A DNA stretch of 64,000 nt, from NCBI GenBank assembly GCA_022826665.1, contig JAJDUK010000034.1:1-64000 (forward strand). Direction: 5' to 3'. Below, piece by piece: positions 45,293-60,968 of the stretch (its first letter is position 1; every line of letters starts with the position of its first letter). A program made the position numbers and the translations under genes. This stretch comes from Alphaproteobacteria bacterium (lineage in GTDB: Bacteria; Pseudomonadota; Alphaproteobacteria; UBA828). Under the pieces are notes generated by a model that was not told where the DNA came from, did not search any database, and saw only the letters and a program-made list of their open reading frames with translations.

Positions 45293-46108
45293 TCAGCTCA
45301 CGCCGACCAAGAACACGCCATGCTCGTCGGCGCGCGCGACCGCCCGATCGCGCTCCAGGATAAGCGTCTCGCCGGCCTCGACCGCGACCCCCCGGAAACC
45401 GGCCTCGGCCAGCCTCTCGATCGTGTCCGCCCCGATCGTCGGCAGGTCGGCCCGACGCTCCTGACCGGGCTTTTTCATCTTGACCAGCACAGCGCCGGGC
45501 CCTGCCTCCTGAAGCGCAGCGCAGCGTTCGATCAACCCGTCCGTTCCTTCTACCCCTTCGACGCCGAGCACCCGACCGACCTGCACCACGACGGCCTGGC
45601 CGATATCTTGCGCGCCAAGCGCACGGGCGGCCTCGATGCCGACAGCGATGTCGCGTTCGGCGTCTTCGTCGGGAGCGCGCTGGCCGATCACGCCGGCGGG
45701 CGCGCAGAGCGTTGCAATCAGGTCGTCGGCGCCGACGACGGTGAAGCCTTCGTCTTCAAGCTCGGCAATCACGAGGGAGAGGAGCGCGTCGTCGCCCTTG
45801 GTCTTTGCGCGCGCGATGCGCCCCATGAGGCGCATGCCGCGCAGGTCGACCTTGAGAGACGAGAGGGAGGGCCGGCGGATCGAGCCGGCAAGCACAACCT
45901 CGCGGCAACTCGCTTGCCTCAGCGCTTTGAGCAAGGCGCCGACCGCACCGAGCCCGAGCCAACGGTGGGGGACGCCAACGCACGTCTCCGGGTCCGTCTC
46001 GCCCTCGAAGGCGATGACGAGGACCTCACGGCCTTCGCCCCTGCACGCCCGCGCGATGAGGCCTGGCAGCGGCCCGCCGCCGGCAATAATTCCTAGGCTA
46101 GCCCGCAT
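45293..46108 (-). CDS. lpxI: UDP-2,3-diacylglucosamine pyrophosphatase LpxI
   Basis: Releases UMP from UDP-diacylglucosamine to form lipid X. It is the LpxI type found in alphaproteobacteria, unrelated to LpxH. At 271 residues it has the LpxI_N start LGIIAGGGPLPGLIARA and a C-terminal domain with ADLPTIGADTIERLAEAGF, then GVAVEAGETLIL. The ATG at 46106-46108 and its GGTGAG ribosome site lie inside the terminal inverted repeat of a 300-bp element, so its expression may differ from the usual lpxA-lpxI coupling. Confidence 0.95.
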   Translation of the reverse strand: MRASLGIIAGGGPLPGLIARACRGEGREVLVIAFEGETDPETCVGVPHRWLGLGAVGALLKALRQASCREVVLAGSIRRPSLSSLKVDLRGMRLMGRIARAKTKGDDALLSLVIAELEDEGFTVVGADDLIATLCAPAGVIGQRAPDEDAERDIAVGIEAARALGAQDIGQAVVVQVGRVLGVEGVEGTDGLIERCAALQEAGPGAVLVKMKKPGQERRADLPTIGADTIERLAEAGFRGVAVEAGETLILERDRAVARADEHGVFLVGVS

Positions 46109-46398
46109 ATCTCACCAGGGTCATGGTCTGCGCGGCGCTGTCCGGCCGACAGGGCAGGAGAGGCGTGCAGCGCGTCGCGCGTCCCACGCGCGCAGGAGCG
46201 CGCGATGCAGGGACATCGGGCAAGCGTCTCGACGCACCATGTGGGCCGGACAGTGCCGCCCTTCGGGTCGCGCCCAGGCACGCGCCCGCGTCGTCGCGCG
46301 CCTCAACCGTATTCCCCGATACGCTTCTCGGCCCGCTCCTAGCGGATCGAAAGCCTGCGCGCGACGCAGGCCGTGACCCTGGTGAGATATGCGGGCTA
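46099..46398. mobile_element. 300-bp element with 34-bp terminal inverted repeats between lpxA and lpxI (MITE-like)
   Basis: Bases 46099-46132 and 46365-46398 are inverted copies identical at 32 of 34 positions; the outer 25 match perfectly (beginning TAGCCCGCATATCTCACC). Both ends finish in TA, as for IS630/Tc1-type insertion at TA. No transposase gene is inside. A second inner pair (about 46131-46149 and 46243-46261, core CTGTCCGGCC/GGCCGGACAG) adds structure. The right end contains the lpxA stop, and the left end contains the lpxI start and ribosome site. Confidence 0.7.
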
Positions 46399-47196
46399 CT
46401 CCCCGCCATCGTCCCTGGGTTGGCAAATCGAGCGTTCGCGATCGACCCGCATGAAGTCGACGATATCCATGACCGGCTCGTTGTCCTGGAACAGCTCGGT
46501 GACGTCCGCGAGACGCTCGGTCATGGTCCCTTCCTGCGCGAAGAGCAGCCGGAAAGCCCGCCTGAGATCGTGGACGATGTCGCGGCTGAAGCCACGGCGC
46601 TTGAGCCCGACCAGGTTGAGCCCGGTCAGGCGCGCGCGGTCGCCCATGGCCGAGCCATAAGGAATGATGTCGTGCTCGACCCCGGACATGCCGCCGACGA
46701 TCGCGTGGCGCCCGATGCGGACGAACTGATGAATGCCGGCAAGGCCACCGATAATGGCCCAGTCGTCCACCGTCACGTGGCCGCCCAGCGTCGCGTTGTT
46801 GGCCATGACGACGTGGTCGCCGACGATGCAGTCGTGAGCGACGTGGGTCGCGATCATGAACAGGCAGTGGTCGCCGACATGCGTCAACATGCGGCCGTGG
46901 GGCGTACCCGGATTCATGGTCACGTGCTCGCGGATGACGTTGTCCGAGCCGATCTCGAGACGCGAGGGCTCGCCCCGATACTTGGTGTCCTGCGGCGGGT
47001 GGCCGATGGAAGCGAAGGGATAGATGCTGGTGCGTGGGCCGACCGTCGTGCGCCCAGTGACGATCGCGTGAGAGACCAGCCGCACCTCGTCGCCGAGGAC
47101 GACGTTGGATCCTACGATGCAGTAGGGCCCGATGCTGACGCCGTCGCCGAGTTCCGCGCCCGGCTCGATAATGGCAGTCGGGTGGATGTCCGCCAC
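46396..47196 (-). CDS. lpxA: UDP-N-acetylglucosamine acyltransferase
   Basis: First step of lipid A synthesis. The 266-residue left-handed beta-helix shows hexapeptide repeats from IHPTAIIEPGAELGDGVSIGP onward. HVAHDCIVGDHVVMANN contains the catalytic His, and HQFVRIGRHAIVGG follows. The start is GTG at 47196, 1 bp after the fabZ stop. Its TAG stop is part of the terminal repeat of the adjoining 300-bp element, but the coding sequence seems complete. Confidence 0.96.
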   Translation of the reverse strand: MADIHPTAIIEPGAELGDGVSIGPYCIVGSNVVLGDEVRLVSHAIVTGRTTVGPRTSIYPFASIGHPPQDTKYRGEPSRLEIGSDNVIREHVTMNPGTPHGRMLTHVGDHCLFMIATHVAHDCIVGDHVVMANNATLGGHVTVDDWAIIGGLAGIHQFVRIGRHAIVGGMSGVEHDIIPYGSAMGDRARLTGLNLVGLKRRGFSRDIVHDLRRAFRLLFAQEGTMTERLADVTELFQDNEPVMDIVDFMRVDRERSICQPRDDGGE

Positions 47197-60370: not shown

Positions 60371-60391
60371 GGACGCGGCGGGATCGATGCG

Positions 60392-60898
60392 ATGACCGAG
60401 CAGGCGCCGCCCGAAACGGACGCGGCCCACGTCGCCGGGCAGGTCACCTTCTTGGTCTGCGTCGCGGACGACGGCCATTCCGAAGTGGCGGCGCGGTTCG
60501 CCGCGCTGCGCGCCCGCAATTCCGGCGGCCGCGTGGCACTCATTCACGTGGTGCAGCCGCCGGAGTTCCAGCACTGGGCGGCGGTCGGTGAGCTGATGCG
60601 GCAGGAGACGCGGGAGGAGGCGGAAGCCCTCCTCCAGTCCATCGCCGCCAAGGTGGAGGACGTCACCGGAGAGCCGCCGAGCGTGGCGGTGCGCGAGGGC
60701 GGCATCGGCGACGAGATTCTGGGCCACGTGGCCGAGAACGAAGCGATCAACCTTCTGGTCGTCGGCGCCGCGCCGCCTGATCAGGGGCAGGGATCGCTGA
60801 TTTCCTGGTTGGCCGGGCAGCTTGCCGGCCAGCTCAACATTCCGCTCGTGGTCGTACCCGGCAACCTGAACGATCAGCAGCTCCAGGATTTGACATAG
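60392..60898 (+). CDS. Universal stress protein (UspA family)
   Basis: 168 residues with the Usp fold: FLVCVADDGHSEVAARFAA at the first strand and helix, RVALIHVVQPPEF, and a C-terminal NLLVVGAA...SLISWLAGQLAGQLNIPLVVVP-type end. The ATP-binding G-2x-G-9x-G-S/T motif is only partly matched (VGAAPPDQGQGS), so nucleotide binding is uncertain. It precedes nfuA in the conserved trpS-usp-nfuA neighbourhood. Confidence 0.85.
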   Translation: MTEQAPPETDAAHVAGQVTFLVCVADDGHSEVAARFAALRARNSGGRVALIHVVQPPEFQHWAAVGELMRQETREEAEALLQSIAAKVEDVTGEPPSVAVREGGIGDEILGHVAENEAINLLVVGAAPPDQGQGSLISWLAGQLAGQLNIPLVVVPGNLNDQQLQDLT

Positions 60899-60968
60899 CC
60901 CGCAGTTCTCACCACGGTCGCGGCCGTCGTCGCACCCCATTTCGGATGCCGGAGACGAGATCCGGCGC

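Follow-up and report, generated by a model that had tools for sequence, protein, structure and literature searches.

BOX elements of Streptococcus pneumoniae are palindromic, MITE-like repeats from which 36 genes take their stop codon, and large BOX elements form expressed ORFs (PMC3049150). In Acinetobacter, the terminal repeat of MITEAba12 gives the first four codons (MQQS) of the neighbouring gene in some strains (PMC6382973). The Rickettsia palindromic elements are open-frame palindromic mobile elements that are translated within host genes (PMC10969869, PMC6649704). Translational coupling through RNA unfolding is established (PMC12548453), and a dependence on distance has been described (PMC10666635). 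PiggyBac elements use TTAA and its variants TTAG and CTAA (PMC10813416).

Here we compare with these systems a 300-bp element that occupies the overlap of lpxA and lpxI in an alphaproteobacterial window (the whole stretch of DNA analysed, 64,000 nucleotides). Like BOX, it is a palindromic, MITE-like repeat; it differs from BOX in sequence, modular structure and phylum, and the takeover of a start codon with a relay frame is not seen for BOX in the available part of that report (PMC3049150). MITEAba12 is different in being 113 bp in size and having stop codons in all six frames, hence it allows no read-through relay (PMC6382973). Rickettsia palindromic elements form in-frame protein fusions, whereas the lpxA–lpxI element shifts the frame and parts two cistrons. 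With the IS1380-family (piggyBac-related) insertion sequences and MITEs derived from insertion sequences it has in common a TA-centred YTAR target, and it matches one IS1380 element of the same genome at 18 of 19 terminal bp; different from the IS1380-family insertion sequences, it carries no transposase and the likeness is limited to these 19 bp. As in the described cases of coupling by unfolding or termination-reinitiation (PMC12548453, PMC10666635), a start hidden in a stem would be opened by an overlapping upstream frame, but the upstream frame at lpxI is a transposable element. No description of a MITE acting as a relay cistron was found in the open-licence literature. The features of the locus are as follows.

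46396–47196, minus strand: lpxA (266 aa); stop codon TAG at 46398–46396, the same stop position as in the relatives
46099–46398, no strand assigned: non-autonomous MITE with IS1380-type ends, 300 bp counting the TA at either flank
46359–46398, minus strand: terminal inverted repeat next to lpxA, which stops at the outer TAG of this repeat
46099–46138, plus strand: terminal inverted repeat next to lpxI, with GGTGAG and the ATG of lpxI when read on the lpxI strand
46098–46409, minus strand: relay ORF of 103 codons, from the native lpxI start (46409–46407) to a TAG stop (46100–46098)
46111–46116, minus strand: GGTGAG, a weak Shine-Dalgarno-like site for the new lpxI start, within the 3′ arm
45293–46108, minus strand: lpxI (271 aa), with a new, element-supplied start ATG at 46108–46106

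The identities of LpxA, LpxI, LpxB and FabZ are supported by Pfam and NCBIfam; the LpxI equivalog model matches with an E-value of 2e-71 but scores under the cut-off curated for it, and the two Pfam domains of LpxI score above theirs. The original prediction had called for a look at relatives in which lpxA and lpxI are directly joined, and all six genus relatives that have the locus turned out to be of this kind. In each of them the element is absent and the two genes overlap by 14 nt. Their junction sequence is ATGGCGGGGAGTAGCCT, in which TAG is the end of lpxA and ATG is the start of lpxI. The window follows this sequence, is broken after AGTAG and picks it up again at TAGCCT; the element therefore sits within codons 4–5 of lpxI, right at the lpxA stop, with a target duplication of at least TA. 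The LpxA protein is unaltered by the insertion, and the N-terminus of LpxI changes from M-A-G-S-S-L-G to M-R-A-S-L-G. Because an in-frame TGA (46114–46112), two codons upstream of the ATG, closes the lpxI frame, the start of lpxI must be in the repeat and not earlier. Past the ATG at 46108, no further in-frame start codon occurs before codon 59, which is one.

The lpxI gene is intact; its dN/dS is ∼0.07 against the two nearest relatives, a value of which most may predate the insertion, so that selection before and after it is inseparable. LpxH was not found in this genome by a search that matched E. coli and other control genomes (LpxG was outside the search). LpxI is the usual enzyme in alphaproteobacteria (PMC4807358). 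With lpxI intact and no LpxH found, lpxI presumably must still be translated, and it is probably essential in this genome.

The element itself matches the original description exactly: 34-bp inverted repeats (32 of 34 positions complementary) bound 300 bp that end in TA on both sides, and the terminal repeats hold the lpxA stop and the lpxI start. Extended to 46099–46138 and 46359–46398, the arms are complementary at 36 of 40 positions. As had also been claimed, no transposase is present inside the 300 bp, and the ORF that runs through the element has no family match in Pfam or NCBIfam. Short, transposase-less and bounded by terminal inverted repeats, the element thus has the make-up of a MITE, and its mobility is further supported by the other copies. 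Further copies in the same genome are 67–81% identical to it, most of them near full length and some partial. Terminal-repeat-like ends occur 79 times in the genome, compared to 2 for a reversed control pattern, far beyond chance. The family is present in all eight genus genomes searched, with identities of up to 88%; its copies are dispersed at unrelated sites with unrelated flanks, and the extracted copies show TA flanks in a YTAR-like target context. The nearest named records are metagenome-assembled Rhodospirillales or Alphaproteobacteria.

These findings bear on the reading that the sequence is an old resident regulatory RNA and not a mobile element. Nothing beyond the stable fold speaks for it. 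Such an RNA had been expected to be conserved at this site across distant relatives and to have no other genomic copies; none of the six relatives has the element here, whereas many unrelated sites are occupied, and this reading is thereby refuted.

A full-length IS630-type parent had been anticipated, and is not supported. Just one full-length element sharing the ends of the MITE was found, and it belongs to the IS1380 family: at C55:7221–8874 of the same genome lies a 1654-bp element whose terminal 19 bp match the MITE at 18 positions, and which encodes a 481-aa IS1380-family transposase (NF033539, E 5.6e-120; PF13701, E 2.9e-148). Judged from these ends, the parent of the MITE is likely to be of IS1380 type. 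However, the C55 copy need not be the direct parent, because the likeness stops at 19 bp and because relatives of its transposase were found in only two of the eight genus genomes (this one and G005), compared to eight of eight for the MITE. This difference in distribution suggests that the parent was lost or that the MITE is mobilised by something else. The C55 insertion sequence is flanked by TTAG on both sides. Among the TA-flanked MITE copies, 15 of 25 have identical 4-bp flanks; in fits by size of the target duplication (2 or 4 bp), 10 copies are compatible only with TA and a longer repeat, and 2 copies only with 4 bp.

As transcribed on the lpxA–lpxI strand, the element is predicted to fold with −208 kcal/mol, compared to −164 ± 5 kcal/mol for shuffled sequences (z −8.3). 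Both the GGTGAG (46116–46111), which presumably pairs with the 3′ end of 16S rRNA as a Shine-Dalgarno-like site, and the ATG of lpxI (46108–46106) are inside the 3′ arm. With the hairpin in place, 37.0 kcal/mol would be needed to unpair the new lpxI start together with its surroundings (−20 to +12); the corresponding values are 14.9–21.3 kcal/mol for the native lpxI starts of the six relatives and 12.1–26.1 kcal/mol (5–95%) for random positions. When the 5′ arm was kept single-stranded in the calculation, mimicking a translating ribosome, the cost was 9.8 kcal/mol. The claim that the stem hides the lpxI start therefore stands for the thermodynamics of the free RNA, but would not hold for an RNA on which the relay frame is translated. 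It had been overlooked that a frame now runs from the native lpxI start across all of the element and finishes on the new lpxI start; because of this layout, a ribosome translating the relay frame would hold the stem open.

The strong hairpin over the lpxI start had led to the idea that the insertion may have become a switch on lipid A synthesis. In such a switch, the state of the hairpin would shift with conditions such as ribosome density on lpxA or on the relay frame, and translation of this frame could in theory play the part of a leader ORF. No evidence for such a switch was obtained: the element matches no Rfam family up to an E-value of 1, it is missing at the site in six of six relatives, and its frame shows no signal of selection across the family. 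We consider the switch very unlikely. An even smaller probability is assigned to the other use proposed for the insertion, that the element carries its own promoter for lpxI. Outward promoters are present in other bacterial MITEs (PMC6382973, PMC5896051); however, a consensus scan of 45900–46700, which covers one promoter type, gave one single sigma-70-like site, located on the opposite strand, and no site on the lpxI strand appeared in the promoter and terminator scan.

The native lpxI start at 46409 is retained together with the AGGGA upstream of it. The relay frame that begins there reads MAGSSPHISP... and has no stop across the entire element; it shares 14 nt with lpxA and 11 nt with the new lpxI, within whose first codons its TAG (46100–46098) lies. 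The net insertion is 298 bp in length (1 mod 3), so that in a gene which exits in the frame of the ATG, the native frame is automatically set on the terminal TAR. Given this length, only the openness of the frame is left to chance. The exit frame is open and ends in a stop in 20 of 40 MITE copies, and 12.5% of Markov shuffles contain an open frame as long as the relay; the openness at lpxA–lpxI may be luck, and the 103-aa relay peptide itself is probably meaningless.

From the layout of the locus, we favour as the probable explanation a tolerated, opportunistic MITE insertion, with lpxI translated via a ribosome relay through the element. A transposase-less, IS1380-type MITE inserted at the TA (GTAG) in the lpxA–lpxI overlap; the sequence shows that the lpxA stop is kept, and that lpxI has lost its first codons and starts at the ATG in the terminal repeat. 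Ribosomes finishing lpxA would go on to start the relay frame, just as lpxI itself was started before the insertion. Translation of this frame would melt the hairpin, with ribosomes terminating on the lpxI start, and either the terminating ribosomes or the opened site would give lpxI translation, in the order lpxA, 103-aa frame, lpxI. The hairpin would make lpxI strictly dependent on translation of the relay, which amounts to ordinary translational coupling and not to a dedicated switch. Against the relay, coupling over an overlap of 11 nt may be weaker than over the 4 nt that are common (PMC12548453).

This overlap and the weak Shine-Dalgarno-like site would also suit a static damping, in which the relay is poorly or never translated, the hairpin is mostly shut and lpxI is made at a lower, constant and tolerated level; the new start is indeed far less accessible in free RNA (37.0 kcal/mol) than native or random sites. 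However, lpxI is intact, conserved and, as a gene of the lipid A pathway in a genome where no LpxH was found, probably essential, and the relay start has its own AGGGA site, and we judge such a damping unlikely. In the relay model, a mobile element could occupy a tight overlap of two genes, one of them probably essential, and neither would obviously be lost: the first gene retains its stop, the second receives a new start, and the through-frame would restore coupling. With the empty-site relatives as a control, the lpxA–MITE–lpxI arrangement offers a natural setting in which to test how RNA unfolding couples translation.

A second locus has the same layout. A MITE copy between potF and potG (named by sequence resemblance, not by family search) is common to G002 and G005, at loci L161/L086 and L159/L146, and the site is empty in G000, G004, G006 and G007. 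The insertion is a few codons inside potG, the frame of which now apparently begins at the ATG of the terminal repeat. In G002, a frame of 103 codons begins at the native GTG and stops 8 nt past this ATG. In G005, the orthologous insertion has a relay frame interrupted after 47 codons, which shows that the relay can be dispensable. The relay layout is thus recurrent at lpxI and potG, but not strictly maintained.

A conserved coding function of the element frame was rejected, since a simulation of neutral substitution yields as many stop codons in the element frames (18.0 expected) as were observed across copies (19). The terminal TAR is the exact stop of a gene in 21 of 43 full-length copies (22 ends); as background, 28% of the YTAR sites and 47% of the CTAG sites outside genes in the window are stop codons, and targeting of stop codons as a special property is mostly explained by target preference together with purifying selection. 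Donation of start codons was likewise discarded as a special property: among copies with a terminal-repeat ATG and a gene start nearby, four of eight are in frame (three of seven independent ones), compared to one third by chance. One candidate, L129 at an MFS gene in G006, could also use a TTG start. Taken together, the neutral stop counts and the near-chance coincidence of stops and starts over 43 copies point to an insertion that is tolerated and that happens, by its geometry, to restore coupling, and the relay looks opportunistic. We consider it unlikely that this MITE family, with a TAR stop, outward ATG/GGTGAG ends and an often open body, tends to rebuild coupled pairs at operon junctions; if it did, the transposon would add a further cistron to an operon instead of blocking it.

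Elsewhere in the window, at 60896–60925, there is another, apparently solo end of the same MITE family, with no recognisable partner end nearby; the TAG in it terminates the gene called at 60377–60898. Two sister-genus genomes have only an inner segment (about positions 160–273, 74–80% identical, ends missing), found at L089, L099 and L108 in G013 and at L090 and L100 in G016, which is perhaps a related repeat family.
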